Below, one piece after another: positions 2,365 through 30,021 of a stretch of 30,181 nt of DNA. Position numbers and translations under genes: made by a program. Location of the stretch: positions 1 through 30,181 of IMG/VR virus record IMGVR_UViG_3300035698_010635; one strand, written 5' to 3'. The notes under the pieces are model-generated. The model saw only the letters and a list, made by a program, of their open reading frames with translations, had not been told where the DNA came from and ran no database searches. Each line of letters starts with the position of its first letter. Position 1 is the stretch's first letter. Source of the DNA: a virus.

Positions 2365-2397
2365 GATATCACTAGCCCCCTGGTGTCTCTAGATATC
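2365..2397. terminator. Hairpin between convergent fibre and groEL genes
   Basis: A stem CACTAG/CTGGTG with one G-T wobble and a CCCC loop lies at 2370-2385. It is flanked on both sides by GATATC, which extends the symmetry. The hairpin fills the 39-base gap between two converging genes, where a bidirectional terminator is expected. There is no T-run on either side, so it is not a textbook intrinsic terminator. Function is inferred from position. Confidence 0.4.
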
Positions 2398-4012
2398 AAC
2401 TATCATCCTTGAAATCAGTTACAATCACGGCCTCGGTCGTAAGCAATAACGTCGCAACACTAGCGGCGTTTTTTAATGCCTGTTTAAGAACCAAAGCTGG
2501 ATCGATAACCCCAGCTGTCACTAAGTTCTCGTACTCACCGTTAGCTGCATTGAATCCTTGCTCTACCATAGGTAACCCTAAGGTTTCCTGCACTACAAGC
2601 ATAGGTTCATACCCAGAGTTCTTAGCTATCTGTGCTAAAGGTGTAGTCAGTGCTTTACCTACGATTTTAACGCCAGCTGCCTCATCTGCGTTGGATCCCT
2701 TCATATCTTTGAGGATATGTGACGCTTTGACGTATAAACTGCCACCTCCCGGAACAAATCCTTCTGAGGATGCCGCCTGCACGGCGAAAACAGCGTCGTC
2801 TATGCGATCCTTAGCCTCTCTCATTTCGAGCTCTGTAGAGCCTCCAGCGCGGATTACAGCGATTCCGCCTATAAGCTTAGATATACGGCCCTGTAAGTAG
2901 GGTTTTAGACGTTCTGCACCTGCAACGTCCTTCATCTTCTCCATATAGTCTCGTAACTGAGAGATTCTATTCTTAACGTCCTTCTTACTGCCTGCACCAC
3001 CTACAATAGTAGTATCGTTACGCGTTACTACGATACGCTTAGCTGTGCCCAGGTGTTCTAACTTACATGACCTAGCATCGACACCAGTGTTAGGACCTAG
3101 TACGGTAGCTCCTGTGAGAGCTGCCAGATCTTTAGCTAACTCAGTACCATCTTCTTCGAACCCCATAGGAAATGGAGTAGCACATACTTTAATAGTACCT
3201 TGCATGTTGTTAATAGCAAGTGCGTTGACTACCTCTGGTTCATACTTATCTACAATCAGTAGGAGAGGGCGTCCCGTAGGAGCTATCTCATTCAGGATAT
3301 CTTTAAGCTCATGTATGGTATGTATCTTATAGTCTACCAACATAATGTAAGCATCCTCATACTCCACACGCATGTTCCTTTGATTGGTTACAAAATAAGG
3401 TGAGGCAAAGCCTTCTTCATAGCGTAGTCCTTCGACGTACTCTATACTGGTCTCCCCCTGCCTCCCCATCTCTACGGTGATAGCTGCATCTTCGCCTAGC
3501 TTATGCTTAGCGGTTGCAATCATCTCACCTAACCTCTTATCAGAGTTAGCTGATATAGTAGCTACCTGCGTTAACTCTTTCTTAGTCTTGCACGGTCGTG
3601 CGTGCTCATCGATAAACTTATCTACTTCAAGGACTGCCTTATCAATACCCTTCTTGACATTGACAACGTTAGCACCTGATGCTATGGCCTTCTTACCTTC
3701 ATTAAAGATAGCCCTAGCTAATACAGTAGCTGTAGTGGTACCATCCCCTGCTATCTCAGCTGTTCGCTGGGCAGCCTGGCGTACCATCTGTGCTCCTATG
3801 TTCTCAAAGGGATCTTCAAGTCTTTGTATAGACTTGGCTACAGTCACGCCATCTTTAGTAACAGCGAAGGCTCCTGGACCTGGCTCGAAGGCTACGTGCC
3901 TACCGCCTGGTCCTAAGGTAACCTCCACAGCGTCCGCTAATAAGTTAACACCCTTGGATATCTTCTCTCTAGCGTCATCGTCAAACTTAACTTCTTGGTG
4001 TGGTCTCTTCAT
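2396..4012 (-). CDS. groEL: GroEL-type (group I) chaperonin
   Basis: 538 residues, close to the usual 540-550. It aligns by eye with bacterial GroEL throughout. The ATP-site motifs TLGPGGR (32-38), KDGVTVAK (53-60) and GDGTTTATV (89-97) are intact. The equatorial/intermediate segment RIDDAVFAVQAASSEGF with the catalytic aspartate (about 405) is followed by PGGG (421-424). The Gly-Gly-Met C-terminal tail of many bacterial GroELs is absent; it ends TDFKDDS. The start follows an AGGAGA ribosome site and overlaps the upstream gene by ATGA. It is the last gene of the long leftward unit. No GroES homologue is recognisable in the window, so it either uses the host GroES or works without one, as proposed for some other phage chaperonins. 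The likely role is folding phage proteins such as capsid, or stabilising polymerase. Confidence 0.97.
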   Translation of the reverse strand: MKRPHQEVKFDDDAREKISKGVNLLADAVEVTLGPGGRHVAFEPGPGAFAVTKDGVTVAKSIQRLEDPFENIGAQMVRQAAQRTAEIAGDGTTTATVLARAIFNEGKKAIASGANVVNVKKGIDKAVLEVDKFIDEHARPCKTKKELTQVATISANSDKRLGEMIATAKHKLGEDAAITVEMGRQGETSIEYVEGLRYEEGFASPYFVTNQRNMRVEYEDAYIMLVDYKIHTIHELKDILNEIAPTGRPLLLIVDKYEPEVVNALAINNMQGTIKVCATPFPMGFEEDGTELAKDLAALTGATVLGPNTGVDARSCKLEHLGTAKRIVVTRNDTTIVGGAGSKKDVKNRISQLRDYMEKMKDVAGAERLKPYLQGRISKLIGGIAVIRAGGSTELEMREAKDRIDDAVFAVQAASSEGFVPGGGSLYVKASHILKDMKGSNADEAAGVKIVGKALTTPLAQIAKNSGYEPMLVVQETLGLPMVEQGFNAANGEYENLVTAGVIDPALVLKQALKNAASVATLLLTTEAVIVTDFKDDS

Positions 4013-5075: not shown

Positions 5076-5466
5076 TAGGTATCTCCTCTTTACTATATAG
5101 GAACCCGTGTTTATCACACCACTCACCATAAGTGGATTTGGCTCCTTTGAATAACTTCTGCTTCGGGTTCGTGAACACGAAACGTAAGTCCAAGTCAGGG
5201 TATTGATTCCTGACCATGATATGCTTCTGCCTGTCATGCACGGTGAAGCGACCCTTGGTCTCTATCACTATGCCGTTCTTCAAGACAAAGTCAGGCGTGT
5301 ACGTGCGGTTCTTAACCGGTTGTACAAACTTTATCTTCATTGTTTCGTACTTGACTGTCCTCTCTTTTGTCCGAATCTGATCGGCGATCCGTTCTTCGAG
5401 GCCACTTTTGAAACCAAGTGTACGCGCGACCTGTTCTTTCGTAAGGTGTTTAGATCTGGTTGCCAT
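5056..5466 (-). CDS. T7-type endonuclease I (Holliday junction resolvase)
   Basis: 136 residues from the ATG at 5466, preceded by GGAG. It matches T7 gp3 along its length. FKSGLEERIADQI contains Glu24, then Glu41, and TYTPDFVLKNGIVIETKG gives Asp59, Glu69 and Lys71. The D-x9-E-x-K spacing is identical to T7 Asp55/Glu65/Lys67. The C-terminal part (DLRFVF, STYGEWCDKHG, IPNEWF) also parallels gp3. It is expected to act as a dimer cutting branched DNA during replication, recombination or packaging, and to help break down host DNA. Unusually, its first 43 codons overlap the 3' end of the 5'-exonuclease gene in another frame. Its own end overlaps the DEDDy exonuclease by 20 bases. Confidence 0.93.
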   Translation of the reverse strand: MATRSKHLTKEQVARTLGFKSGLEERIADQIRTKERTVKYETMKIKFVQPVKNRTYTPDFVLKNGIVIETKGRFTVHDRQKHIMVRNQYPDLDLRFVFTNPKQKLFKGAKSTYGEWCDKHGFLYSKEEIPNEWFEE

Positions 5467-6215
5467 TCTACTCCATCCTGTCTTCTGATCCACAGCAGAT
5501 GAGCCATCTCCATGAAGTAATCTTCATCATGGATCGTTAGATATACATCGTATACATCTTGTATCATCTGTGTCTTATTGCCCTTGCAGGCGTCCATGAT
5601 AGCTGCTGCTTTCACTGGGCCTACTCCTTTTATCCCTATGATGTTATCGACAGCATCACCTGTCAACATCTGGGTACAAAACTTCTCGTAAGCCTGACGC
5701 TTCGAGACATAATATCGTTCATCCTTTACGAAGTTATAGTGCCACCCCGGTATCTGATCTAAGTCCTTGTCTATTGTTACTATTGTAGTGTTCTCTTTGG
5801 CCGGGAACATATGTCCGAACGGACTGTTGGGCCTGCCGAAGGATTCCCTCATCTGTGCTATGCCTAAGGCATCATCAGCTTCTAAGTAGCTTACCATGAC
5901 AGCATCGTGGTGCTCCACTAAGTACTCACGTATGGCGTCGAAATGTATAGGTCTTTCCCTCTTCCTATTACCTTTGTAGGGTTTAGTCTTAGCTATATTA
6001 TAACGAAAGTTAGTTCTATCATTACTAGATAAGAATATAGTTGTCTGGTACTGCTCCAGATCCTTTGCACCTACTGCGTTCTTATGATGTAGATTATTTA
6101 ACATCATCTTCACTGCTTGCAGTGCATGTGATACAGGTGGGTTGTCATCGTTACTTTGTACAGCATACCCTGCTCTGTACACAAAGATGTCACCATCGAT
6201 TAATAAATGTTTCAT
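5337..6215 (-). CDS. 5'-3' exonuclease / flap endonuclease (RNase H-like, T7 gp6 type)
   Basis: 292 residues. N-terminal LLIDGDIFVYRAGYA carries the first metal-binding aspartates (7, 9). SYLEADDALGIA gives the acidic EADD cluster, VTIDKDLDQIPG the third acidic site, and LTGDAVDNIIGIKGVGPVKA is the helix-3-turn-helix DNA-binding motif of the FEN/5'-exonuclease family. It probably removes RNA primers and degrades 5' ends during replication and recombination. The start overlaps the upstream stop in TAATG. The C-terminal 43 residues (basic, NTLRKNRSRVHL..., QKRGQSSTKQ) lie inside the endonuclease I reading frame for 130 bases, so this tail is a lineage-specific overprint or extension. Confidence 0.92.
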   Translation of the reverse strand: MKHLLIDGDIFVYRAGYAVQSNDDNPPVSHALQAVKMMLNNLHHKNAVGAKDLEQYQTTIFLSSNDRTNFRYNIAKTKPYKGNRKRERPIHFDAIREYLVEHHDAVMVSYLEADDALGIAQMRESFGRPNSPFGHMFPAKENTTIVTIDKDLDQIPGWHYNFVKDERYYVSKRQAYEKFCTQMLTGDAVDNIIGIKGVGPVKAAAIMDACKGNKTQMIQDVYDVYLTIHDEDYFMEMAHLLWIRRQDGVEWQPDLNTLRKNRSRVHLVSKVASKNGSPIRFGQKRGQSSTKQ

Positions 6216-6687: not shown

Positions 6688-6984
6688 TTATAACCTCTCT
6701 TTAATTGATTCGATTAACTCTTTAGCCTGAAAGACATTCTCTCGGATAGTCCAGTCATCATCTTCCCAGTACTGGTCTACAAAGTCTTGTAGATCTCTCT
6801 CGAATATCTCTAGAGAGTAGACATGGAAAAGATCTATGTTCTCTCTTAAGTATCCCATAAAGAAACTAGGGGCATAAGTCTTGCGGCCCAGTGAGTAGCG
6901 GAGACCCGCAGACATGAACAATCTCATGTCCGGGAACTCCTTTACCTTAAGTGCACGCTTGTTCTTAGAACGGAAGCTTGCCAT
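6688..6984 (-). CDS. Small hypothetical phage protein, 98 residues
   Basis: A strong AGGAGG ribosome site lies before the ATG at 6984, which sits inside the 3' end of the SSB-like gene (20-base overlap). The segment LRYSLGRKTYAPSFF (27-41) is of a type seen in small phage and prophage proteins of unknown role. The C-terminal half is acidic and aromatic (DQYWEDDDWTIREN). No catalytic motif can be named. Confidence 0.75.
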   Translation of the reverse strand: MASFRSKNKRALKVKEFPDMRLFMSAGLRYSLGRKTYAPSFFMGYLRENIDLFHVYSLEIFERDLQDFVDQYWEDDDWTIRENVFQAKELIESIKERL

Positions 6985-7549
6985 TGCTATCCTCCTTCAC
7001 CTCAGCTTTAGTCTCTACCTCAGCTTCGGCTGTCTTTACGGACTCGCCTACCGTGTCTATGCCTAGTGGTTCTACTATAAAGGCAGCAAACTTCTCTGCT
7101 AACTCTAACACCTCGTCGGCACTCTTAGCCACAGTCGCAGCAGCTGTGATAGCTGTAGCCCGTGCGATACGTGCAGTATCTTGCGTTGTATATCCCCCAC
7201 CACGTGGCTTAGATGATTTAAAACCACCACCGCCTCCGCCGCCGGAGCCTCCCCCACTAAAGCCACTAGACGTACCGGCAGATGATGCTGGTAGGATGTC
7301 GTTCACATTCCAGAACGCCCCCTTCTTCTCTAGTTGTAGTGTGACCTCTTGACCTGGCTTGTCTTCCAGACCTTTGATCTTACCGGCCAATTCCGGTTGG
7401 GTTTTAAGAACGGATTCATGTATACCTTTCTGTTGCGTTTTGCCGTCCGACTCGTACACTAACAGTGCTCCTCTGTAAGTTCCACCATCACGTTTTGTGA
7501 TGTCGGCCTCTGCTTGCACAGATATGAGCTTGATTAATTTATTTACCAT
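6965..7549 (-). CDS. Single-stranded DNA-binding-like protein
   Basis: 194 residues. The first 90 or so are beta-rich with the look of an OB fold (EADITKRDGGTYRG, VTLQLEKKGAFWNVNDI). A flexible Ser/Gly linker with a run of seven glycines (about 97-112) follows, then an Ala-rich helical part (RIARATAITAAATVA), and finally an acidic tail ending EDSNGKLPF. Bacterial SSBs end in an acidic -PF tip that recruits partners, and T7 gp2.5 also has an acidic tail, so the plan fits a phage SSB. Unlike standard SSB, a 60-residue helical segment sits between linker and tip. It lies between SpoVR and the nuclease genes. The SSB call rests on architecture, not on a conserved core motif. Confidence 0.65.
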   Translation of the reverse strand: MVNKLIKLISVQAEADITKRDGGTYRGALLVYESDGKTQQKGIHESVLKTQPELAGKIKGLEDKPGQEVTLQLEKKGAFWNVNDILPASSAGTSSGFSGGGSGGGGGGGFKSSKPRGGGYTTQDTARIARATAITAAATVAKSADEVLELAEKFAAFIVEPLGIDTVGESVKTAEAEVETKAEVKEDSNGKLPF

Positions 7550-7570: not shown

Positions 7571-9106
7571 TTACCAAGTACGTTTACTTCGTCCGAGCAT
7601 CGTGCCAGAGGCATCGACCTTGTCGAGCTCCACAGGATATCCCCAGATTTTGTGTACATACTTCGTAGTTGCTTTCTCCATATCCGAATGTAGTAACTTC
7701 CCTTCTACTACCGTGTGACGTAAGTGTAGCGTGCGATCATCAGCTTTGTTAAAACCTATGACCTCAATGTGCGGTACGAGATTGTCAAATCTATACTGCG
7801 CTGCTAAATGCTTACGAATCTTTCTGTAGTCCTCATCGTCTTGGATGTGAATAAACTCAAACACCTTTCGACTAGCGTCATCTTCAATACAGCATAGCTG
7901 TAACTCTTTGATGACCTTGGGACTTAGAAACTCTAGAATAAAATTCTCATCTTTGAACGTCTCCATTATCTCCATCATTGTGGGTAGCCATGGCTTGCCC
8001 GCTACCAACGGCATAGTCTTGTAGTCTTCCTCCGTAGGATTCTCACAAGCTCTCTTAATGTCTTGGAACATTTTAAATCCTAAAGCATATGGGTTAATGG
8101 GTGGTAACATACTACCTATCCCAGCATTCAATGTGAACTCTGACCTAACTACGTCACTGATTCCGAATTGGTTAGTCACACCTGTGTGTGAATCTAAGAA
8201 CTCCATGTAACTACCTTCATCAATGTATCCTTCCTCGTAGAGGTCGGTCATCAACGTGTAGTGCCAGAACGATGCCCAGCCTTCGTTCATTAACTTAGTC
8301 TGTATCTGTGGGTAGAAATACTGTGCTGTCTTGCGCACGATGCGTAGTATCTTACGCTTCCATGTCTCCATGTGTGGAGCATTCTTCTCCATGAAATATA
8401 GTATGTTCTCCTCAGGATAAGGCCAATCAAATATCTCTGATGCATCATTGTATTCTCTATCTGGTTTGAACATGTCATCCCAGAAGGCATCAGTTACTTC
8501 TTGTTCATACGCTAACCACTGTTCATACTTACCCGCAATGACTGAGGGTTTGTCATGTCTACGTCTCTTATACTTATCAATACCGTACAACCACATGGAG
8601 TGAGCTGCATCCAGGAACTTCTCTACTGTATCAGCACCGTATAATTCCTCAGCTTTCTCTACGTATCGCTTAGCAAATACTAGGTAGTCCACGATGCCTT
8701 CAGCATCTGTCCACTCTTTAAACAAATAGTTATTCTTAAAGAATGATCCGTGACCACACACTGCATGGGCTAACACTGTAGCCTGCATAGTAGCTGAGTT
8801 ATCCTCCATGATGTACGTAATCATAGGGTCTGTGTTAATGATAGTCTCATATGCTATGCTAGACTGTCCTTTCTTGTAAGCTTTCTCAGCTTCAATATAG
8901 TTCTTACCGTACGACCAATGCTTATACAGTAGTGGTAATGCATTCATCGAATGGTTATAAAGCATTTGATCTGCAGTTACAATCTCTATCTGCGGCTCGT
9001 AGTACGTTAGACCATACTTATCAGAGGCTATCCCATTGATGACCTCCCATAACTCATCGATTAAGTCTAAGCTCCAAGCGCTGCCTGTATATAATAGTTT
9101 ACTCAT
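7571..9106 (-). CDS. spoVR: SpoVR family protein (YcgB-like)
   Basis: 511 residues, essentially the length of E. coli YcgB (510). The start at 9106 fits YcgB-type proteins; 17 extra upstream codons would lie within the yeaH-like gene. Family features seen: LTYYEPQIEIVTADQML (34-50), the HAVCGHGSFFKNN block (114-126), NEGWASFWHYTLM (273-286) and NPYALGFKMFQDIKR (338-352), followed by a C-terminal domain with IEVIGFNKADDRTLHL. The biochemical role of SpoVR is not settled; in Bacillus it affects spore cortex, and in enterobacteria it is a stress and stationary-phase protein that co-occurs with PrkA and YeaH. Here it overlaps the yeaH-like gene by eight bases and completes that trio. Confidence 0.97.
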   Translation of the reverse strand: MSKLLYTGSAWSLDLIDELWEVINGIASDKYGLTYYEPQIEIVTADQMLYNHSMNALPLLYKHWSYGKNYIEAEKAYKKGQSSIAYETIINTDPMITYIMEDNSATMQATVLAHAVCGHGSFFKNNYLFKEWTDAEGIVDYLVFAKRYVEKAEELYGADTVEKFLDAAHSMWLYGIDKYKRRRHDKPSVIAGKYEQWLAYEQEVTDAFWDDMFKPDREYNDASEIFDWPYPEENILYFMEKNAPHMETWKRKILRIVRKTAQYFYPQIQTKLMNEGWASFWHYTLMTDLYEEGYIDEGSYMEFLDSHTGVTNQFGISDVVRSEFTLNAGIGSMLPPINPYALGFKMFQDIKRACENPTEEDYKTMPLVAGKPWLPTMMEIMETFKDENFILEFLSPKVIKELQLCCIEDDASRKVFEFIHIQDDEDYRKIRKHLAAQYRFDNLVPHIEVIGFNKADDRTLHLRHTVVEGKLLHSDMEKATTKYVHKIWGYPVELDKVDASGTMLGRSKRTW

Positions 9107-10352
9107 TAGTAAATAACCCCCGTAATGCTGCGAAAACCTCTTCCTTGTTGTTAGCATGCACTTGATTAAAATGATCGTACTGTGCCACTAGTGGCTCGTA
9201 CACGTTGTATAATGTATCGTGGTTGTAGAACGTTGCGTAAGCGGACGAAGCATTCTGTAAGTTATGCTGATGGTCCATGCTATCCTCATCTCCTACCTGC
9301 ATGTAGGCTAAGTACTGTACCACAGGTAGTACTTTTTGTATTAACAGAGGTACTAGAACTTCGTTATCATATCCCCAGTTATCCCCATCACTCGCCTGCG
9401 CTGCGTAGATATTATATATGTTGGGATCATACTCTTCTTTAATGATCTCTAACATCTTCTTGTAACATGATGACACCTCAGTACCACCACTCTTATCTCC
9501 GTAGAAGAACGTTTCTTCATATACTTCTTCAGCGTCCTGTGTATGTCTAATGAATCTGATGTCTACTCTATCATACTCACGCTCTAAGAATAAGTATAGT
9601 AGTAGAAAGTATCTCTTGGCTAGGTCCTTACGGTCCTCTCCCATGGAGCCCGAGACATCCATCAAGCAGAACATAACTGCTGACTTGACTGGATATCGAA
9701 TCGTTTGGTATAGATTGTATCGAAGGTCTACATCTTCAATGAAGGGAACCCTCTTCTTTTCTAATTCCTCCCGCTCTTGCTCAGTCACTGCCTCTTCTAT
9801 ACGTCTATTGATGCTACCCTTATGGGCTATGCGTCTGCCTAGTGAGGCTTCCACCGTCTTCTTGACGTTTAGCCGAGAGATGACACCCTCTTTAGTATAG
9901 CCTGCACGTATGCGTTTAGTTTTGAAGTCTGTCTTCAAGTTCTCTTTCACATAGTTAGGTAGACACATGTCCTCAAATAATATATTCAAGAACTCGTCTT
10001 TAGTAAGAGTAAACTCAAAGAACTCATCACTCTCGCCACTGTTACCCGCACCGTTGCCTTTGCCTTGGCCACCAGGAGGTTTCTGGATCGTATCGCCCTT
10101 AGTGAAGCGATCGTTACCTGTAGCCACACGTCTATGTACACCTGTACTCGTGTCCTCAGCATATGAAGGCTCGTCTACCCTATCAATAGGTACTTTCACT
10201 TTACGTTTCTCTTTGATATCCTTAATCTTACTATTCTCCACAGTATTATCTACTGCTTCCTTTACGTACTTCTTATACCTATCAAGAAACTTCTTGCGAT
10301 TACCGTCCGAAGGTGACTTACCTTGCGGTCGTCTGTCGATTACTCTAGCCAC
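9099..10352 (-). CDS. yeaH: YeaH/YhbH family protein (DUF444, von Willebrand A-type domain)
   Basis: 417 residues from a GTG start with GAGGAG eight bases before it; E. coli YeaH has 427. It begins with the family signature IDRRPQGKS and has a Gly-rich linker (93-107). FLNILFEDMCLPN (121-133) and the KRIRAGYTKEG stretch follow, then the VWA fold: FCLMDVSGSM (Asp232, Ser234, Ser236 metal site), SGGTEVSS (288-295) and QASDGDNW (319-326). The MIDAS residues are intact, so metal-dependent protein binding is possible. In bacteria yeaH is co-transcribed with the kinase gene yeaG/prkA. Here it lies 69 bases downstream of prkA, the largest gap in this unit, and overlaps spoVR. Confidence 0.97.
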   Translation of the reverse strand: MARVIDRRPQGKSPSDGNRKKFLDRYKKYVKEAVDNTVENSKIKDIKEKRKVKVPIDRVDEPSYAEDTSTGVHRRVATGNDRFTKGDTIQKPPGGQGKGNGAGNSGESDEFFEFTLTKDEFLNILFEDMCLPNYVKENLKTDFKTKRIRAGYTKEGVISRLNVKKTVEASLGRRIAHKGSINRRIEEAVTEQEREELEKKRVPFIEDVDLRYNLYQTIRYPVKSAVMFCLMDVSGSMGEDRKDLAKRYFLLLYLFLEREYDRVDIRFIRHTQDAEEVYEETFFYGDKSGGTEVSSCYKKMLEIIKEEYDPNIYNIYAAQASDGDNWGYDNEVLVPLLIQKVLPVVQYLAYMQVGDEDSMDHQHNLQNASSAYATFYNHDTLYNVYEPLVAQYDHFNQVHANNKEEVFAALRGLFTNE

Positions 10353-10421
10353 TACATCTTCTCCTCATTGTTTTTAAATCAGATACAGTCGATTGGTCTA
10401 TGTTAAACTGATCGGCTATAT

Positions 10422-12335
10422 CTATACACTCTTACTATATCTCATGAACCATTCAACTACTAACTGTACTTGTCGTTCAGTGTAGCCCCTCTCTTGCATA
10501 CGACTAATGAATTCAGTATGCTTACCTCTACTCTCTCTGCTACCTTGTCCTGTAAAGGATATAACAGGTAATAGATCATCAGTCTTACTAAACATGTTAG
10601 CCTCGATCACCTCACGGATCTTCTCGTAGCTAGTCCACTTCGGATTGTCTCCGTTGTTCTTACTAGCATGTCTCAATGAGAAGTTAACTATCTCGTTACG
10701 GAAATCCTTAGGATTAGATATCTCTGCAGGCTTCTCTATTTTCTCGAGCTCCTGATTCAGGGCTTCAGTATCGTACATCTGACCTGTGTCAGCATCACGA
10801 TAGTCTTTATCCTGAATGTAATGATCAGCAAATAGTATGTACCTATCAAATAGACTCTGTCCGAACTCGTCGTAGCTATCTAGGTACGCAGTCTGAATAT
10901 CTTTCTTAAGCTTAGCACAGTAGCGAGGCATTAAGTAATCATCTAGCGTAGTGAACGCTGCAATCTTCTCCTCATCACCACAGTCTATCTCTTCGATGAA
11001 CTGACGTAGTACGGTTAACATATGTACTGGGTTAGCTGCTACCTCTTCAATGTCATAGTTGTACACCTTAGATAGTATCTTGAACGCTTGTCGTGTAGAC
11101 ATGCCCTCGAAGCCTTCACTCCTAGTAGATCCTTCCTTGTACTCTTGTAATGATTTAGCATGTGGGTCTTTCGACTTGATGTTCTCACCATTATAGACTT
11201 GCATCTTAGACTCTACCTTAGAGTTCTCTGGCTCGTCTAAACGAGACAAGATACAGAACCTAGCGAGTATGTCTAAAGTACCCGGCGCTTTGGGCGCATC
11301 ACTAAGACTACTATGTTGTATTAGTTTCTCATAGATTTGCTTCTCTTCGTCTATGCGTAAGCAGTACGGTACGCGTACAATTGAAATCCTATCAAGGAAT
11401 GCTTCATTGTTTCTATTGCTAACGAACGTATCCCACTCTGACTCATTACTATGAGCTAGGATCAACCCGTCGAAAGGTATGGCTGGAATAGCCTCAGTAC
11501 CTTTGTAGTTACCCTCTTGGGTAGCTGTTAACAATGGATGTAACATTTTAATAGGTGCTTTGAACATCTCTACAAACTCTAAGATACCCTGGTTAGACTT
11601 ACAGAGACCACCACTGTAGCTGTATGCGTCTGGATCATCTTGCGATAGATGCTCTAGCTTTCTAATGTCAACCTTACCTACTAGTGTAGATATATCCTGG
11701 TTGTTCTCGTCGCCTGGCTCTGTCTTAGACACGCCTATTTGGTACGCTTCATTAGGATACAGCTTCACTACCTTAAACTTGGAGATGTCACCGCCGTACT
11801 CCTCAAGTCGTTTCATTGCCCAAGGCGATGCGCGGAAACGTAGGTATCGTTCGGGTACCCCTAACGCTTCGGCATCGTCCACCCCGAATAACCCGAGTGG
11901 GGACTCTTGAATGGGTGAACCTTTCAATGCATAGATTGGTTCTTGACCCATTAATGTTTTAAGTCTTTCAGCTAGCGATGACTTCGCTGATCCGACTGGC
12001 CCTAGCAGATAGAGTACCTGTTTAGATTCCTCTAGCCCTTGTGCCGCATGTTTAAAGAATGATACTACTCTCTCGATCACTTCTTCCATGCCATAGAAAT
12101 CTGTGAAGGGAGCGTACTTTTTAATCGTTCTGTTACGATGGATCCTACTTAACCTATCGTCCTTAGACGTGTCGATCAGTTCGGGTTCACCTATTGCTTT
12201 CAACAGCCGTGAAGCGGGTGATGCATACAATGTTGGATCGGTTGCTACCGCATCAACATACTCTTGTAAAGACATCTCTTCAGGAGCTGTGCTCTTAAAC
12301 TTAGTCTTTAACTTCTGGAATACTTTACTACTCAT
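10422..12335 (-). CDS. prkA: PrkA/YeaG family AAA+ serine kinase-type protein
   Basis: 637 residues against 644 for E. coli YeaG. The AAA+ domain starts after the FYGMEEVIERVVSFF segment (80-94) and has a Walker A LLGPVGSAKSSLAE (110-123), with Ser-Ala where bacterial forms often have Gly-Gly. GLFGVDDAEALG and the blocks GILEFVEMFKAP, LTATQEGNYKG and DGLILAHSNESEW identify PrkA specifically. A C-terminal domain follows. Bacterial PrkA has been described as a protein kinase and also as an AAA+ protease affecting sporulation and stress responses. It has a good AGGAG site and overlaps the diphosphohydrolase gene upstream by eight bases. As first gene of the trio it probably sets the activity of the YeaH and SpoVR proteins. 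Confidence 0.97.
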   Translation of the reverse strand: MSSKVFQKLKTKFKSTAPEEMSLQEYVDAVATDPTLYASPASRLLKAIGEPELIDTSKDDRLSRIHRNRTIKKYAPFTDFYGMEEVIERVVSFFKHAAQGLEESKQVLYLLGPVGSAKSSLAERLKTLMGQEPIYALKGSPIQESPLGLFGVDDAEALGVPERYLRFRASPWAMKRLEEYGGDISKFKVVKLYPNEAYQIGVSKTEPGDENNQDISTLVGKVDIRKLEHLSQDDPDAYSYSGGLCKSNQGILEFVEMFKAPIKMLHPLLTATQEGNYKGTEAIPAIPFDGLILAHSNESEWDTFVSNRNNEAFLDRISIVRVPYCLRIDEEKQIYEKLIQHSSLSDAPKAPGTLDILARFCILSRLDEPENSKVESKMQVYNGENIKSKDPHAKSLQEYKEGSTRSEGFEGMSTRQAFKILSKVYNYDIEEVAANPVHMLTVLRQFIEEIDCGDEEKIAAFTTLDDYLMPRYCAKLKKDIQTAYLDSYDEFGQSLFDRYILFADHYIQDKDYRDADTGQMYDTEALNQELEKIEKPAEISNPKDFRNEIVNFSLRHASKNNGDNPKWTSYEKIREVIEANMFSKTDDLLPVISFTGQGSRESRGKHTEFISRMQERGYTERQVQLVVEWFMRYSKSV

Positions 12336-12816
12336 TTGTGGTCTCCTTTAAGTCGTTGTCACCGACTTGGTTTTCAATAAAATAAGCTAACATGAATAAA
12401 TTAGCTAACATGTGATACCTATGATCCATTAACGATTCCTCGTCTATGAAATCTTCGGTAGTATAATGCAGTAAGTGTCTGCCCAACGCATCGACTAAAC
12501 GTGACCATTTCATACCAGATTGGTAATTAAATATGCCGTATTTATCTGCGCCTAACTTAGACACGTAACTCACTTCTTTCAACACCTCAGTCGGAGGTAT
12601 CTTAAAACTATGTGCCATGCTAGCGAGTGTTATCTCAGCTAGTTTAACACATTCATTCTTTCCTGTACGTTCTTTGTCAATCAACGCCTTGACTAAATCT
12701 TCATAGCCGAGCGCCAACACTCTAGTTGCCGAGTTCTCTGGTCGCATCGCTGCTAGCCCTGCAAAGTAGAAGTACCTTACTGGTGGCTTACCGTTGTCGT
12801 CTTTAACTGCAGTCAT
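12328..12816 (-). CDS. dATP/dGTP diphosphohydrolase-like protein (DUF5664 type)
   Basis: 162 residues. The C-terminal 80 residues carry the family pattern: VLKEVSYVSKLGADKYGIFNY, then GMKWSRLVDALGRHLLHY, an acidic DEESLMDH segment and HMLANLFMLAYFIE. This helical, acidic arrangement is typical of phage proteins named dATP/dGTP diphosphohydrolase N-terminal domain, related to the MazG-like all-alpha pyrophosphatases. The N-terminus begins DDNGKPPVRYFYFAGLAAM, also usual for the family. It probably hydrolyses purine deoxynucleotides and so shapes the dNTP pool. It sits between a DUF1937 protein and PrkA, overlapping both. Confidence 0.75.
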   Translation of the reverse strand: MTAVKDDNGKPPVRYFYFAGLAAMRPENSATRVLALGYEDLVKALIDKERTGKNECVKLAEITLASMAHSFKIPPTEVLKEVSYVSKLGADKYGIFNYQSGMKWSRLVDALGRHLLHYTTEDFIDEESLMDHRYHMLANLFMLAYFIENQVGDNDLKETTNE

Positions 12817-13195
12817 TCGTTATCTTCCCCTGTTCTGTTACATATTTAATAGGTATGCCTAAATCTTTAGCAAACTCTATCTCCTCGGTAACTCCTGTAC
12901 TCTCTCTCCATCCTGATATCATTGCTACGAACAACGAGTCTGATCTTTCTAACTGTGCTAAGTCTTTAATCATCCACTGTTCATGTGTTAAACCTCGGGC
13001 TTCACTACTATATATAGAAATGGCATGGCTCTCAGCTATCGGACAATGTACTACGTACCCTTGGCCTAACAGATAACCTGCTATTCTACATACTTTACGA
13101 TATCTATTCTCTCTATGGTAAGACAGCTCATCCGAGTACGGACTCGATAGATATATATATCCATGTTCACTTAACTTCTTCGGATTCATCTTCAT
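12803..13195 (-). CDS. DUF1937 protein (nucleoside deoxyribosyltransferase-like)
   Basis: 130 residues. YIYLSSPYSDE at the N-terminus, GYVVHCPIAESHAIS in the middle, then SLFVAMISGWRESTGVTEEIEFAKDLGIPIKYV. This is the Rossmann-like pattern of DUF1937, related to nucleoside 2-deoxyribosyltransferases, where the SPY and GWxxSxGVxxEI segments line the active site. It likely acts on (deoxy)nucleosides or nucleotides; the substrate is unknown. A second ATG at 13189 has better spacing from the GAGGAG site and may be the true start. It overlaps the HTH protein upstream and the diphosphohydrolase downstream. Confidence 0.8.
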   Translation of the reverse strand: MKMNPKKLSEHGYIYLSSPYSDELSYHRENRYRKVCRIAGYLLGQGYVVHCPIAESHAISIYSSEARGLTHEQWMIKDLAQLERSDSLFVAMISGWRESTGVTEEIEFAKDLGIPIKYVTEQGKITNDCS

Positions 13196-13373
13196 TCTCC
13201 TCGTCTAGGCATTTCCAGAGTTTCCCCTGATTAATATAACATATGGTACTAGACCATACTCCGAACATTTCAGCAACCCGTCGTTGCGTATATCCCATTT
13301 TCAGTAGTTCTTTTACGTCAATCACATCTTGCTCAGTCAGTTTAGCTCTACCGTTCTTTTCACCTGCGTTCAT
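13167..13373 (-). CDS. Small helix-turn-helix protein
   Basis: 68 residues. The pattern GEKNGRAKLTEQDVIDVKELLKMG followed by TQRRVAEMFGVWSSTICYI and GKLWK is the DNA-binding tail often attached to phage HNH endonucleases, here standing alone. The C-terminus is acidic. It is coupled by ATGA to the DNA polymerase gene upstream. It may be a small regulator or the remnant of a homing endonuclease. A second protein of the same type is encoded at 24640-24774. Confidence 0.75.
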   Translation of the reverse strand: MNAGEKNGRAKLTEQDVIDVKELLKMGYTQRRVAEMFGVWSSTICYINQGKLWKCLDEENEDESEEVK

Positions 13374-15451
13374 TTACAATCTCCCCAGGATTTACCCCGT
13401 TCTATATCCACCTTAATAGGCACGTTGAAACTAGTGCCGAACTGCTTCACGAAACCACTATGCACGTCCTCTAGTATCTCTTTAATGTGCGGTATCAATT
13501 CATCCGCAAACTCTGTCTTCATATCTATCACTATCTCATCATGCACTTCGTTAATCATTCTACACTTATCTTTATGTTGTCTCAAAAACCTGTACAATCG
13601 TCCCGTTTGCATAGACACTATGTCTGCCGCTAACCCCTGTACCGGAAAGTTATATACATCCGGTGGATGGAAGTATGTGAACACACTGCCAAACTTAGTT
13701 AGGACCGCCTTCTCGTAGAAGTGGTACTTCTTACCCGTAATGCCTCTACAGTATCCGATTCCTTGATAATGACCGGGACGGGTAATAGTGTCCCCTGTCT
13801 TCTTGTCCCGAATAAATATAAGTTTATCCGTCGGGATACGGTTATCTTTAATCTCTCTAAACCTAGCTTTATAAAACTGTTCAACTTCTGGGTACCTCTC
13901 ATCTTCTTTCTTAAATATAGCCTCTACCGTCTCGAGTGGTAGCTTAGTAGTGTTTGAGATCTTTATAGTCCCAGCACCGTAAGCTTTCTCAAAGGATATA
14001 ACTTTAGCTTTCTTTCGTTTCTCCTTCCACTCCCCACTTGTCTCTATTAAGTATAACACATCTTCATAGGGTTTGTCAACTGCATATGACAATCTTAATG
14101 CATGAAAGTCGACATCATCTCGTATATCTTGCATCATCTGCACACTTTGTGTCAGATATGCCTGTACTCTTATCTCTAATTGACTATAATCTACAGCGAT
14201 TATCTCACCTTCATCCCCATATCTACTAGTAAATAACTGTAGTAGGTCTCTCGGTATGTTCTGTCCGTTAGGATTCTTACTATTAATCCTACCAGTCTTG
14301 GTTTGAACAGTATCTAAGGTATGATGCACGCAGCCGTCTATAGGCTGCACCAAGGGCATTAGCCCAGTCTCATCATATTCTGTCTTGTTCTTCCACTTCT
14401 GACCATATAGATAGGTGTTTAAGAACTTGGTTGAGCCTCTATAGCTGATCAGTAGGTCTATAAGCTCACCAGACGCCTCCTCAGCGTGCTTAATGGCCTT
14501 TAGTGCCTTATGATCGGTACTGTATACCCCTTTCTTCTTCATCGGTCTAGAGTACCTTAATGGCACTCCTAGGCCTTGGTTCACGTACGTTCTCTTTTCT
14601 TTCCTAGTCTTAATCTCACCAGCACGTTGTGCTTTAGGACCGTACCGTAAGAACTCTCCATCGTCATCCTTCAGCTGTATCACCTCATCCATGGTGATAG
14701 GTGAGTTGAATAACACTGCACTGATATGCTCATCAGATGCTGGGTTAAATGGTATCTTCACTGTCCAATGTCCCTGGACACAGGACGCTATGTCTATTAG
14801 TTGTTGCTTTATGTCTTTCTCGTACTGGACCTTGAGCACTGCCGCTCTTTCTAGGTCAAAGTACAATCCATTAGACTCCATTTCACAGAGAGCCAAGTAA
14901 TGCTCCATGTGTGCCAATATTAAGTTAAGCATGCCGTCTTTGCGTGCCTTCTCTGTCTGTTTAAGGAATATAGTCTCAGTATTTATAACATCGCCCTCGG
15001 CGTATGGTAATAATATATCTGGGTCTATCTCGTCAGAACCGAACCCTGCTTTGAACATCTGGGTTACCTTATCATCTTTTAAATCTCCACCGTACTGCTC
15101 AGTCAGTGAGTCTAATGAGGGGTATGTATGGAACTGTCCGGTGAGTAAGTACTCAGCCGTCATCGTATCCCATATCCTGCCACCATCACTTATCCACTGC
15201 TGGAAGTCTGGATCATCCCATATATATAGTAGATCAAACTTAAGGTTATGGCCTACTAAGAAGTTAAATTCCTTCCATGGTAGGTTCACAGGATCTACTC
15301 CATCTACCTCATACAACAACTCAGGGTCGTTCCCTTGTAGCAGTGACGCTACTACTACCATCTTATTTCGTTTGTCGAACGGGTTGCAGAATCGTTTAAA
15401 TGAATGTATGCTAGTAGTTTCTAGATCGAATATACAATATCTATTTTTCAT
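13370..15451 (-). CDS. polA: Family A DNA polymerase with 3'-5' exonuclease
   Basis: 693 residues, about the size of T7 DNA polymerase (704). Exonuclease domain: CIFDLETTS (Asp9, Glu11), VGHNLKFD (Asp73) and LPYAEGDV (Tyr150, Asp154), so proofreading residues are intact. Polymerase domain: motif A VDYSQLEIRV (Asp421), motif B KRKKAKVISFEKAYGAG (about 478-494, with Phe487 at the position that discriminates against dideoxynucleotides, and SFE in place of the usual NFG), motif C NEVHDEIVID (His637, Asp638, Glu639). No 5'-nuclease domain is fused; that activity is encoded separately at 5337-6215. It is the replicative polymerase, working with the nearby primase and helicase. A sigma-70-like promoter lies inside the gene at 14050-14079. 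Confidence 0.98.
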   Translation of the reverse strand: MKNRYCIFDLETTSIHSFKRFCNPFDKRNKMVVVASLLQGNDPELLYEVDGVDPVNLPWKEFNFLVGHNLKFDLLYIWDDPDFQQWISDGGRIWDTMTAEYLLTGQFHTYPSLDSLTEQYGGDLKDDKVTQMFKAGFGSDEIDPDILLPYAEGDVINTETIFLKQTEKARKDGMLNLILAHMEHYLALCEMESNGLYFDLERAAVLKVQYEKDIKQQLIDIASCVQGHWTVKIPFNPASDEHISAVLFNSPITMDEVIQLKDDDGEFLRYGPKAQRAGEIKTRKEKRTYVNQGLGVPLRYSRPMKKKGVYSTDHKALKAIKHAEEASGELIDLLISYRGSTKFLNTYLYGQKWKNKTEYDETGLMPLVQPIDGCVHHTLDTVQTKTGRINSKNPNGQNIPRDLLQLFTSRYGDEGEIIAVDYSQLEIRVQAYLTQSVQMMQDIRDDVDFHALRLSYAVDKPYEDVLYLIETSGEWKEKRKKAKVISFEKAYGAGTIKISNTTKLPLETVEAIFKKEDERYPEVEQFYKARFREIKDNRIPTDKLIFIRDKKTGDTITRPGHYQGIGYCRGITGKKYHFYEKAVLTKFGSVFTYFHPPDVYNFPVQGLAADIVSMQTGRLYRFLRQHKDKCRMINEVHDEIVIDMKTEFADELIPHIKEILEDVHSGFVKQFGTSFNVPIKVDIERGKSWGDCK
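14050..14079 (-). promoter_or_regulatory. Internal sigma-70-type promoter within DNA polymerase gene
   Basis: On the minus strand TTGACA (14074-14079) is followed after 18 bases by TATACT (14050-14055), inside codons for about residues 458-467 of the polymerase. The spacer shares CCTATGAA with the promoter at 20050-20079, and the boxes match the other promoters of this window. It could boost the genes from the HTH protein to groEL. It may be a coincidence of coding sequence, but both hexamers are near perfect. Confidence 0.55.
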
Positions 15452-15603: not shown

Positions 15604-15763
15604 CTATCCTCTCCCATAACGTGCCATTGAACGGATCTTCTTCGTTATAGAACCCATCCCACGCACAAACTTCGCAATACCATTGGGTATCGTCTCCCGG
15701 AGTAACCTGGTCTCCGCAGTTTGGACATCGGCCCTCATTATTGTCCACCGCTCTGCTTTGCAT
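15584..15763 (-). CDS. Zinc-ribbon microprotein, 59 residues
   Basis: Contains RCPNCGDQV (Cys13, Cys16) and WYCEVCAWDG (Cys30, Cys33), a typical zinc ribbon, followed by an acidic aromatic tail (NEEDPFNGTLWERIDED). It overlaps the ClpP-like gene by 26 bases and the next zinc-ribbon gene by 20. It resembles the neighbouring 51-residue protein only in being a ribbon; the sequences are different. Likely a nucleic-acid or protein adaptor near the replisome. Confidence 0.7.
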   Translation of the reverse strand: MQSRAVDNNEGRCPNCGDQVTPGDDTQWYCEVCAWDGFYNEEDPFNGTLWERIDEDTSD

Positions 15764-16346
15764 TATAATGCCTCTTAATACGTTTCTGCAAATCTTTGTC
15801 GCTGGCCCTTACGTATACATCCTTGTCGCTCTTCACCTGCCCGATCTCTTCGGGTGTGAGGAATGGTACGGCCATATCGTCAAAGAACTCGTGTATATGC
15901 TTATACGTTGCGATTGTAGCGTCGAACATCTCGGTACCTTTACCGCTCTCTCCTCCACTATAGTTGTGAAACATAAGCCATGTGTTGGGTTTCATCTTAA
16001 GAGATGAACCTGATACTGCTAATAAGGCATGCATGCTAAAGCATCTACCTACTACGACTATGTCTACTCCGCACTTACAGTCTCTGATAGCATTAACTAA
16101 TACTATACCTGTATCCACACTACCGCCTGGTCCGGCTAGCTGTATGGTTACGCTGTCTTCTACTGACGCATTCTCCAGTAGTTCTAATAAGGGTGCATAC
16201 CCTAAGTTATCATATTCAATTGCCGCTAACAACTTAATCACATGATTAGTTTTCTTTAGAGGGACACTAGTTATCTTAAAATACTCAGTCTCGCCATCGT
16301 CATCTAAGGCATCAGCCCTATTGGTAATATAATGATCGTTTGCCAT
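15738..16346 (-). CDS. clpP: ClpP-like serine protease (cytoplasmic)
   Basis: 202 residues from the ATG at 16346, which has a strong AGGAGG eight bases upstream. It has the ClpP fold signatures: AGPGGSV (71-77, oxyanion-loop region), RCFSMHALLAVSG with the nucleophile Ser104, MFHNYSGGESG with His127, and an Asp-rich stretch SDKDVYVRASD (173-183) for the third residue. No signal peptide. Phage ClpP-like proteins can serve as prohead maturation proteases, but this gene lies among replication genes rather than beside portal and capsid genes. A regulatory or degradative role, perhaps with a host or phage AAA+ unfoldase, is therefore also possible. Confidence 0.85.
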   Translation of the reverse strand: MANDHYITNRADALDDDGETEYFKITSVPLKKTNHVIKLLAAIEYDNLGYAPLLELLENASVEDSVTIQLAGPGGSVDTGIVLVNAIRDCKCGVDIVVVGRCFSMHALLAVSGSSLKMKPNTWLMFHNYSGGESGKGTEMFDATIATYKHIHEFFDDMAVPFLTPEEIGQVKSDKDVYVRASDKDLQKRIKRHYNAKQSGGQ

Positions 16347-17559
16347 CAAATGTAACCTCCTGCTGTACACTACGTCCTGTCTTCGACTTAGGAACGCTTA
16401 TGTACCTTGTTTTTGGATATTCATCATCTTTACCTATCGTAATGATAGCATCAGATGTGCCCTGTTTACCGACATGCGATCCCTTCAATTGGTGCATCGC
16501 TATGTATCGTTGATGTGTGACAGTCTGCGTTACTCTGTCAGTGTTTACTACAGTAGCATCGGTCTGCGATGATGCTATTACAGGACACGTAACAGTTGCA
16601 AAGTCTCTCACATCAGAGTATACTCGCTCTAATTGGTCTGCCATGTTGCCGTTCTTTATAGTCTTGGTAGATAACTTATCTATCATATCTATAATGACTA
16701 ACTTAGCATTATACTTCTTAGCCATACGCTTAATGTAAGGTAACCCCTTACCACGTACATCAAATAATCTTATACGGTCAGGGTCTCCGCCCAGTTTCTC
16801 CGTGTAGGCAGCTTCTGCCCTTTCATAATTGTCTAGTACTTGTTCCCATGAACATTCTAGTACGGCGGACCATATCCTATGTACTAAGAACCCTTCTTGT
16901 TGTTCGTTGTTGAACCACAGTACTGTACCATCTGTAATCTGTTGAGCCATGTGGGCTACCTCACTAGCTAAGAACGATGTCTTACCAGTGTTAACATAAG
17001 CAGCTACCACTACGAATGAGGGCTGTAAGGGCCCTAGGCAGCTGTTCAGGCAATCAAGTCGCCAATGTAGCCCATCTGCACTCTCTCCTACTCCTCTTCC
17101 TGTCTCTATGTTACAGGGTATGAATTCGTGTTCTAAGTTACCTTGCTCTACCTGGTATCTATCTAACATAGCACCGAGCTCGTCTATTGGTAACTCATTA
17201 TCTTCTAAGAGATCTTGTATCTTCTCTTTAAAAGCCTCTTGTTTAAAATGTTCTATTACTAGCTTAACAAAGTCAGAGTCTTGATCTACTTCCTCTTGGT
17301 TAAGTCTGTCGAAGATCATCGTATACATTGTATGCTCTGTCTCCGTCATCTGTGGATGCCGTACTTGATGGAACCATAGCGCAAACTTCTCTACCTCTAT
17401 GAAGGTCTCGTCTCCAAAGGTAGCGTAGTACGCTCCTATATCCTCTAAGATAGTCTTCACTTCGACTGTGAGTGCTTCCCTCTTTACGAAGGATGCATAG
17501 CATGAGTGTATCTCATGACTATCTACGAATAGTCTTAACAGTGTAAGTTCTGTAATCAT
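16318..17559 (-). CDS. DnaB-type replicative helicase
   Basis: 413 residues. A helical N-terminal region (1-145) precedes a RecA-like motor. Walker A VVVAAYVNTGKTSFLA (183-198) lacks the usual first glycine; WFNNEQQ (215-221) is the catalytic-Glu motif of DnaB helicases, LVIIDMID (287-294) is Walker B, and VIASSQTD and the HQLKGSHVGKQG segment (motif 4/arginine finger area) follow. It should be the hexameric 5'-3' replicative helicase. Unlike T7 gp4 it is not fused to the primase, which is encoded upstream and separated by a small 69-residue gene. Confidence 0.92.
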   Translation of the reverse strand: MITELTLLRLFVDSHEIHSCYASFVKREALTVEVKTILEDIGAYYATFGDETFIEVEKFALWFHQVRHPQMTETEHTMYTMIFDRLNQEEVDQDSDFVKLVIEHFKQEAFKEKIQDLLEDNELPIDELGAMLDRYQVEQGNLEHEFIPCNIETGRGVGESADGLHWRLDCLNSCLGPLQPSFVVVAAYVNTGKTSFLASEVAHMAQQITDGTVLWFNNEQQEGFLVHRIWSAVLECSWEQVLDNYERAEAAYTEKLGGDPDRIRLFDVRGKGLPYIKRMAKKYNAKLVIIDMIDKLSTKTIKNGNMADQLERVYSDVRDFATVTCPVIASSQTDATVVNTDRVTQTVTHQRYIAMHQLKGSHVGKQGTSDAIITIGKDDEYPKTRYISVPKSKTGRSVQQEVTFDGKRSLYYQ

Positions 17560-18655: not shown

Positions 18656-18916
18656 TTATTTACCATGTTTATCTGCATAATTCTCGAGTTCTGGACCAGG
18701 CGTAGCGTCAGACCACTCCTGCATGTCCATCTCTATCTCAAGAATATACTCTCGTAGCACATCTAGCGCCTCTAATGCGTCTACTAATTGTGCCTCTGCA
18801 ATGTTGAACTCCGGGTTAGCTTTGAAGGCTAACGGTAGGCTTTCGAGTCTAGCCGACGACGCAGTAACGTCATCTATAGACCTATCAACATATTCTGTAT
18901 AAATTGTGTGTTTCAT
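18656..18916 (-). CDS. Small acidic hypothetical protein, 86 residues
   Basis: Predominantly helical and acidic (AEAQLVDALEALDVLREYILEIEMDM is described here only in part), with a GGGGAG site before the ATG. It overlaps the exported protease-like gene by ATGA. No family recognised; a coiled coil in residues 38-66 is likely from the heptad-like leucines. Confidence 0.72.
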   Translation of the reverse strand: MKHTIYTEYVDRSIDDVTASSARLESLPLAFKANPEFNIAEAQLVDALEALDVLREYILEIEMDMQEWSDATPGPELENYADKHGK

Positions 18917-19560
18917 TCTTTAACTCCCCTAACTAAACACGAATCATTGCGATCGGCTATAACACGAGTTTTATATCCTCGTTTACAGATCCTCTTGCCC
19001 CATATGACGACATCAGCGCCATCAATTAGATTGTTCCACTCTTTCTTGGTGAGCATAGGTGCCACTCTTGTTTTTTTGAACCAATTCAGTGATGCATGAT
19101 AGGTATAAACCTTCTGCGGTGAGTTCTGGTTGATCCTTGATGGTATCACCAGTCCTGCTCTAGTAGTATAGCGTACGTTATGGAATAGTATCCGTGACTT
19201 ATAATTAACACGAACCAGGTCACCCTGAAATACTATTAACGCAGCTGCACTTGCAATGAAGCCTTGTGCTTCCATTATAACCGTGCCTCTACTCGCTGAT
19301 ATATGATAGGTTAGCTTACTCAGCGTCCTCATATATCCTCCTCTATTATCTTTCACGACAATGTATACTACTTCACCTGTTCTCGCACGTTGTAGCCGTC
19401 TAATAAGTTTGTTATATATCTTAATATCTGCTTCAATCATACTATATATAGTATACTTCTTACCATATTTCTTATGTTCCTGTACGGATAGCTTAGCTAC
19501 TCCGACACTACTCCATAGAAATGCTAGTAACAGGGCTAGGATGCTTAATGATCTTAACAT
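18913..19560 (-). CDS. Exported ClpP-fold protein (putative periplasmic serine protease)
   Basis: 215 residues. An N-terminal signal peptide (MLRSLSILALLLAFLWSS, cleavage perhaps after VGVA at 19-22) is followed by a ClpP/crotonase-like pattern. VVYIVVKDNRGGYM (64-77) fits the strand and glycine turn, VIMEAQGFIASAAALIVFQGD gives a nucleophile-like Ser104, and RILFHNVR gives His127. The 23-residue Ser-to-His spacing equals that of the cytoplasmic ClpP-like protein at 15738-16346. A candidate Asp is at 180 or 183. Known periplasmic proteins of this fold exist in bacteria, but the active site here is inferred by eye. It may act in the envelope, for example in lysis, exclusion or receptor modification. 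Confidence 0.65.
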   Translation of the reverse strand: MLRSLSILALLLAFLWSSVGVAKLSVQEHKKYGKKYTIYSMIEADIKIYNKLIRRLQRARTGEVVYIVVKDNRGGYMRTLSKLTYHISASRGTVIMEAQGFIASAAALIVFQGDLVRVNYKSRILFHNVRYTTRAGLVIPSRINQNSPQKVYTYHASLNWFKKTRVAPMLTKKEWNNLIDGADVVIWGKRICKRGYKTRVIADRNDSCLVRGVKE

Positions 19561-29084: not shown

Positions 29085-29165
29085 ATGAGTTTAAACAATC
29101 CGAAGATGTTACCTTTGTTCATAGGTGCAGCAATAGTTATACTCTTGATAGTATTTAATCTATGA
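29085..29165 (+). CDS. Membrane micropeptide between holin and endolysin
   Basis: 26 residues: SLNNPKMLPLFIGAAIVILL then IVFNL, one membrane helix. Starts immediately after the holin stop and overlaps the amidase start by ATGA. Possibly a holin modulator; the position is the only evidence. Confidence 0.5.
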   Translation: MSLNNPKMLPLFIGAAIVILLIVFNL

Positions 29166-29947: not shown

Positions 29948-30021
29948 AGCGGAATGGTAAAGTAGAATTACATGAGTCTCATAAGCTCAAGACCCAGGTG
30001 CAACTCCTGGTTCCGCAACCA
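29948..30021 (+). tRNA. tRNA with CAT anticodon (Met, or Ile if C34 is modified)
   Basis: A 74-base cloverleaf: acceptor AGCGGAA/TTCCGCA, D stem GTAA/TTAC with loop AGTAGAA, and anticodon stem TGAGT/GCTCA with loop CTCATAA (anticodon CAT at 29980-29982). A four-base variable loop, T stem CCAGG/CCTGG with loop TGCAACT, and encoded ACCA end follow. Odd points: A-A mismatch at the 1:72 pair, no GG in the D loop, and G for U at loop position 55. The 1:72 mismatch is a feature of bacterial initiator tRNAs (C-A there). Whether it is initiator, elongator Met or Ile2 cannot be decided. Confidence 0.8.

Follow-up and report, generated by a model that had tools for sequence, protein, structure and literature searches.

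A bacterial-type prkA–yeaH–spoVR operon in a tailed phage and its recurrence as an all-or-none viral module

PrkA, YeaH and SpoVR are protein families found widely in bacteria, where they are linked to starvation and sporulation. Their genes make up a bacterial operon, prkA–yeaH–spoVR (E. coli yeaGH and ycgB), and here we describe a complete version of it carried by a virus. The stretch analysed, hereafter the window, is the entire IMG/VR record IMGVR_UViG_3300035698_010635, a linear fragment of 30,181 bases, in which prkA, yeaH (DUF444) and spoVR all lie on the minus strand between the genes for a family A DNA polymerase (PolA) and a 5'–3' exonuclease. The three families, their order, their common strand, and their catalytic and metal-ion-dependent adhesion site (MIDAS) residues are those of the bacterial operon; unlike the latter, the window trio sits in a phage replication module, belongs to a phage-only clade and encodes divergent proteins.

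The trio is not unprecedented in phages, as annotations from Thermus phages and from the Ralstonia jumbo phage RsoM2USA were already known. All three families are adjacent in the Thermus phages phiYS40, TMA, MN1, phiLo and Lalka, as they are in the window, but the order is YeaH–SpoVR–PrkA, PrkA is ~27% identical, and parts of the trio are annotated as serine kinase, SpoVR or hypothetical protein; the Thermus trio is evidently a separate acquisition. In the cultured phages phiYS40, MN1, phiLo and Lalka8, Pfam supports SpoVR for three phages and DUF444 for two, the other assignments coming from annotation and tblastn. RsoM2USA, known from its annotation alone, resembles the window in that SpoVR (open reading frame 28, ORF28) and PrkA (ORF30), annotated separately, lie on one strand with an intervening gap that fits a YeaH gene; it differs in being a 343 kb jumbo phage, and its authors put SpoVR and PrkA in separate functional classes (PMC8504454). 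In a virome study of an oxygen-minimum zone, spoVR appears on a list of viral genes presumed to change the state of the host (PMC8940887). No description of the trio as a phage module, or of a role for it in phages, was found in the open-licence literature.

Two better-described groups resemble parts of the trio. NorQ–NorD and other MoxR pairs likewise combine an AAA+ ATPase, a vWA protein with a DxSxS-T-D MIDAS and a third protein as target (PMC13036017), but PrkA falls in another AAA+ group, both in Pfam and in the published classification, and SpoVR is only a putative target. Gluzincins (DUF885-type, M1, M2, M32, M61 and MATCAP) may share with SpoVR its predicted fold, and the two SpoVR histidines five residues apart and glutamate in an EG pair are like the HExxxH and EEG of MATCAP/TMCP; gluzincins differ in retaining the HExxH glutamate, which is Ala or Val in SpoVR, and sequence homology between them is undetectable by profile comparison.

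Composition and integrity of the trio

The preliminary description of the window had reported three full-length genes with intact motifs in one phage operon. Pfam and NCBIfam scores, together with the Walker A and MIDAS motifs, bear this out for the following genes:

10422..12335, minus strand: PrkA, a YeaG-type AAA+ ATPase with a C-terminal PrkA domain, 637 aa (PF08298, PF06798, NF011999, Walker A)
9099..10352, minus strand: YeaH/DUF444 vWA protein, GTG start, 417 aa (PF04285, AlphaFold2 (AF2) model, MIDAS)
7571..9106, minus strand: SpoVR, 511 aa from the ATG at 9106, the longest open reading frame starting at 9157 (PF04293, PF24755, AF2 model)

The likely SpoVR start, at 9106, gives an 8-nt overlap with the end of yeaH, the gap between prkA and yeaH is 69 nt, and prkA overlaps the preceding gene (12328..12816) by 8 nt. 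The trio is thus packed as an operon. A promoter scan of the region returned as many sites as shuffled sequences did.

PrkA matches PF08298 (E=6e-162, 539 bits) and PF06798 (E=2e-55, 188.5 bits), each with a cut-off of 25, and scores 1017 bits against NF011999 (cut-off 576). Its Walker A motif, GPVGSAKS, is found at residue 112. Residues K118, R225 and K419 are the equivalents of E. coli YeaG K116, R232 and K426, each of which is required for function in E. coli (PMC4664914); they are kept in 60/60, 61/63 and 63/63 aligned viral PrkA rows, respectively. In Pfam the protein matches AAA_PrkA and PrkA only, and B. anthracis PrkA has been assigned to AAA+ clade III (PMC13001217). Whether PrkA is a kinase or a protease is disputed, the bacterial reports being in conflict.

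YeaH matches PF04285 (E=3e-124, 415.9 bits; cut-off 27) and has all of the MIDAS motifs, DVSGS (232), GGT (289) and SDGDN (321), the residues of which (D232, S234, S236, T291 and D322) are invariant in 43 viral sequences. Its AF2 model, with a predicted local distance difference test score (pLDDT) of 77, consists of a C-terminal vWA domain (residues 222–417; Z ~16) and a poorly ordered N-terminus; phmmer against the PDB returned chance matches only. SpoVR matches PF04293 (E=6e-131, 437.4 bits; cut-off 27) and PF24755, SpoVR_C (E=4e-14, 52.7 bits; cut-off 27.6), and falls below the threshold of the narrower NF008737 equivalog model (588.3 against 679). None of the PADLOC families matches the trio. 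The families are known ones, to which the phage proteins add new members.

All-or-none co-occurrence in viruses

The preliminary description treated the trio as the oddity of a single phage and asked whether the three families co-occur in viruses as a set. They do, and the trio is a recurrent phage module in several unrelated virus groups. SpoVR-anchored viral loci carry PrkA, YeaH and SpoVR in this order and on one strand in 72 of 77 cases, and the remaining five are truncated where their contig ends. Among PrkA-anchored viral records, DUF444 is present in 50/50 and SpoVR in 48/50, the other two ending inside the operon. YeaH-anchored loci include 29 complete trios; the rest are mostly enterobacterial proviruses starting with yeaH at base 1. 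Some members are shared between the three anchored lists. Co-occurrence of the trio is far beyond chance.

Enterobacter phage LAU1, which begins with yeaG–yeaH, was considered as a trio phage and excluded from the counts because these genes are host DNA at a provirus edge; about 40 IMG/VR enterobacterial proviruses with yeaH at position 1 (L339–L382 and similar) were excluded as host genes at an edge in the same way. The yeaH-first proviruses hint either at a preferred integration site next to yeaGH or at a boundary artefact there. In LR756502, a 642 kb phage, SpoVR is present ~240 kb from the other two genes.

The trio is also found in contigs of 100–360 kb and in 630–640 kb phages. A PhoH-like gene lies directly downstream of SpoVR in large phages (L014:12965-13723 and L016:13096-13869), and several other phages have similar weak matches in this position. 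Weak phrog_2 matches just 3' of SpoVR in jumbo phages were considered as terminase and rejected, since those checked are PhoH.

Additional genes are sometimes found within the trio. Homing-endonuclease-like genes separate prkA from yeaH in L019 and L032. Four sister phages have a calcineurin-like phosphoesterase between yeaH and spoVR (L005:11250-12056, L006:9706-10497, L008:12305-13084 and L011:11457-12251), a gene absent from the window trio that would fit a phosphorylation role. Finally, SpoVR of L060 (16014-17556) is split over two frames, through a genuine interruption or an error in sequencing.

Phage origin and evolutionary history

Contig L001, the PrkA of which is 77% identical to that of the window, matches it gene for gene, in the same order, from primase to GroEL; most of this order is retained in L002 and L060, the latter having been found through its polymerase and not through PrkA. 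L184, with a polymerase only 28% identical, also has its trio flanked by PolA and the exonuclease. In addition, eight sister contigs of 31–47 kb carry the large terminase (TerL) gene on the same contig. Because the gene order recurs in four contigs and eight sisters carry terminase, the window is not a one-off chimera of phage and chromosome, which the preliminary description had named as a possible undoing of its reading; host contamination is ruled out by the same sister contigs and repeated synteny. Tyrosine integrase was found in 0/50 trio-bearing records, many of which are fragments.

Trees were built for the three proteins with hosts sampled from Pseudomonadota only. In all three, L001 is the nearest neighbour of the window and L002 the next, within a phage-only clade of 14–15 rows (Shimodaira–Hasegawa-like approximate likelihood ratio test support 97–100), so that the window proteins fall in a clade of phage versions, a point that the preliminary description had left to be checked. 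The nearest bacterial PrkA is ~62–64% identical, and the window YeaH and SpoVR are 36–44% and 41–47% identical to bacterial copies, respectively. Recent acquisition from one host is ruled out by this level of identity and by the three trees. The ratio of non-synonymous to synonymous substitution rates (dN/dS) is 0.03–0.20 in unsaturated pairs, indicating purifying selection; for two window genes dN/dS was left out because synonymous sites are saturated. Between the window and L001, 72–82% of synonymous sites have changed, against 15–22% of non-synonymous sites. Thus, the trio is not the decaying pick-up from within one host genus that the preliminary description had considered. Within the phage lineage it is intact, moves as a unit, is under purifying selection and has a shared history.

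Over all rows, the PrkA tree requires at least two to four phage/bacterium label changes, varying with the rows and the model, and more than one transfer between phages and bacteria is therefore likely; the SpoVR and YeaH trees, which include fewer bacteria, are compatible with a single transfer. L036 nests among bacteria, may be chromosomal and was omitted from later trees. The order prkA–yeaH–spoVR is common to nearly all Gamma- and Betaproteobacterial loci fetched, suggesting that the whole operon was probably taken up by the phage.

The replication slot and other window genes

The genes around the trio are as follows:

12328..12816, minus strand: protein with a dATP/dGTP diphosphohydrolase N-terminal domain, the upstream neighbour of prkA, outside the trio (PF18909)
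12803..13195, minus strand: DUF1937/DUF4406 protein (PF09152, PF14359)
13370..15451, minus strand: family A DNA polymerase, PolA, one edge of the trio slot (PF00476, phrog_17, slot comparison)
6965..7549, minus strand: 194-aa protein downstream of SpoVR, function unassigned (no PHROG match)
5337..6215, minus strand: 5'–3' exonuclease, the other edge of the trio slot (PF02739, phrog_107)

Among phages with related polymerases, the slot between PolA and the exonuclease holds the trio in the window, L001, L002, L060 and L184, and is free of it in L179, L180, L181, L185 and L187. Since the same slot is occupied in some relatives and trio-free in others, the trio is an accessory module. The 194-aa protein is kept in L001, L002 and L060, and also in the trio-less L187, and is thus not a member of the trio.

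The window also encodes a DnaB-like helicase, a Toprim primase, two exonucleases, GroEL, ClpP-like proteins and tail-fibre proteins. These neighbours confirm that the phage context is real, and their annotation agrees with the earlier placement of the trio among replication genes, with GroEL and ClpP in the same window. The ClpP-like genes are two, at 15738-16370 and at 18913-19560 (minus strand); the latter encodes a relative of ClpP-like serine proteases (phrog_1827) with a hydrophobic, signal-peptide-like N-terminus and no Pfam match. GroEL (2396-4012, minus strand) adjoins the exonuclease genes and is 80% identical to the L001 copy; among 79 polymerase-related viral loci, most of them partial flanks, none other than L060 matches it. 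A tRNA-Met (CAT) gene is located at 29948-30021 (plus strand), after an amidase/endolysin-like gene at 29162-29698.

Predicted fold and metal-like site of SpoVR

The AF2 model of SpoVR (pLDDT 87, predicted template modelling score 0.84) is mostly helical. When it was compared with known structures using VIA-align, the top rows were all gluzincins, from seven groups, with Z from 12.8 to ~8, against a background for helical models that can reach Z 13. The best rows are DUF885-type lipoproteins (Z 12.8, 207 residues at 4.2 Å), M1, M32, M2, MATCAP and M61, and the gluzincin-like predicted fold spans residues 7–405.

In an alignment of 28 diverse SpoVR sequences, including E. coli YcgB and proteobacterial, phage and Thermus phage copies, the few invariant residues include E87, H114, G118, H119, E275, G276 and A278. 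The histidines form a HAxxxH motif in proteobacterial and most phage copies, and HVxxH or HAxxH in Thermus phages and LR756511. E275 lies in a (N/H)EG motif on a downstream helix and is a candidate third metal ligand. The gluzincins TMCP and MATCAP have a HExxxH plus EEG pattern (PMC10499314), which H114, H119 and the E275-G pair of SpoVR match, minus the catalytic glutamate. When the SpoVR profile was run against PDB sequences (hmmsearch), there were no matches. On the model and the residue pattern, SpoVR would be gluzincin-like both in its predicted fold and in its predicted metal site, and not a peptidase.

Inteins tend to occupy active sites. In-frame inserts in viral SpoVR are found beside N103 (L022), within the H114 motif (L049–L052), and at the E275 motif or directly beside it (L004, L146 and L056), positions that agree with the predicted site given this preference. 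PrkA has in-frame inserts at the P-loop in L049–L052. Pfam calls an intein for the L056 SpoVR and L049 PrkA inserts; the remaining inserts are intein-like by their ends only.

Proposed function and alternatives

The reading that we favour, to which we give a probability of roughly 0.4, is that the window comes from a non-integrating tailed phage with a complete bacterial-type prkA–yeaH–spoVR operon, kept stably as an accessory module of the replication region and encoding an AAA+/vWA machine that acts on or through SpoVR. In such a machine PrkA would be the motor, an ATP-driven AAA+ ring, and YeaH its vWA partner or adaptor, gripping a client through the MIDAS metal site. SpoVR, with its predicted gluzincin-like metal site, would be the client or an effector part. 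AAA+/vWA pairs drive metal insertion (PMC13036017) and, by analogy with NorQ–NorD, which loads iron into its target, PrkA–YeaH might remodel SpoVR or load its metal. E. coli yeaG and yeaH deletions have a common phenotype under nitrogen starvation (PMC4664914); by analogy with this role, the machine may keep a starved cell productive for lytic growth, the phage bringing all of it so that it works immediately in a host that grows slowly or starves and has yet to make its own.

Several results weigh against this reading. PrkA is outside the MoxR group by Pfam, so that the comparison with NorQ–NorD is one of likeness in working, not of membership, and B. anthracis PrkA was reported to have neither kinase nor protease activity and to be monomeric without ATP (PMC13001217). 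Foldseek of the SpoVR model against the PDB gave nothing significant (best E 0.29), and the gluzincin match taken alone is suggestive, given the high VIA-align background of a helical model. Homology of SpoVR to DUF885 or MATCAP was rejected at the sequence level, with a hhalign probability of 0.1%, the same as for negative controls. The catalytic glutamate of HExxH/HExxxH is replaced by Ala or Val in all aligned SpoVR sequences, so SpoVR may be inert. Finally, the trio of Thermus phage Lalka8 is located between portal and TerL, and the timing of the trio need not be early. A farther-reaching version, in which PrkA–YeaH load or remodel a SpoVR with an unrecognised gluzincin fold and a lost peptidase glutamate, and in which the machine was acquired independently by many unrelated lytic phages to control the state of a starved host, appears unlikely.

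The trio could instead act as host YeaG–YeaH does, pushing or holding the cell in an RpoS-type starvation state, as in pseudolysogeny or a slowed infection. The preliminary description proposed that the phage imposes on its host, or mimics, a starvation programme, which is possible, though we regard this explanation as doubtful; its other suggestion, that the trio takes part in protein quality control, is likewise conjectural. When E. coli is starved of nitrogen, its YeaG supports metabolic heterogeneity as well as the rpoS programme (PMC4664914), the residues needed for its rpoS role are conserved in phages, PhoH is the next gene in jumbo phages and spoVR has been placed among presumed host-state-altering viral genes (PMC8940887); however, lytic phages usually benefit from an active host, and the hosts very likely own the operon, as most Gamma- and Betaproteobacterial loci fetched have it, in which case an extra copy need not change their state. 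YeaG also represses mqsRA and dinJ–yafQ in E. coli (PMC4664914), and the trio is found in non-integrating phages of several lineages, as would suit a module that dampens toxin–antitoxin systems or another starvation-linked abortive response. Given that the E. coli effect is transcriptional and indirect, and that there are zero PADLOC family matches and no defence genes identified nearby, such a counter-defence function seems highly improbable.

A use in assembling the virion or the replisome is somewhat easier to accept than counter-defence, although still distinctly unlikely. For the MoxR–vWA pair of group 2.2 jumbo phages, in which the vWA protein is fused to a metallopeptidase, Iyer et al. 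suggested a role in virion assembly (PMC7824862), and the trio, as an assembly chaperone, would have the same AAA+/vWA/metallopeptidase-like combination; its position beside the Lalka8 portal and TerL genes, and the GroEL and ClpP-like genes of the window, point the same way. Yet replication or nucleotide genes are the neighbours in most lineages, the phage trio proteins remain close to bacterial ones, and close relatives with the same replication slot lack the trio, which is thus not needed for their assembly. It is scarcely credible that the trio is recent passenger DNA or a contig artefact without function in the phage: enterobacterial provirus records with a host yeaH edge do exist in IMG/VR, and LAU1 starts with yeaG–yeaH, but the window PrkA is only ~62–64% identical to the nearest bacterial copy, the three trees recover a phage-only clade, selection is purifying, and the trio lies between replication genes in five independent contigs.

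Implications

The points of interest here are the recurrent, all-or-none phage module and the predicted site of SpoVR. Phages that carry all three genes or none provide independent evidence that the families form one machine, useful in lytic infection even outside spore formers. The phage copies are small and can be removed and tested, some of them in Thermus phages that can be grown in culture. Together with the AAA+/vWA link, the predicted SpoVR metal site would allow what has long been listed as 'unknown function' to be posed as a precise biochemical problem.

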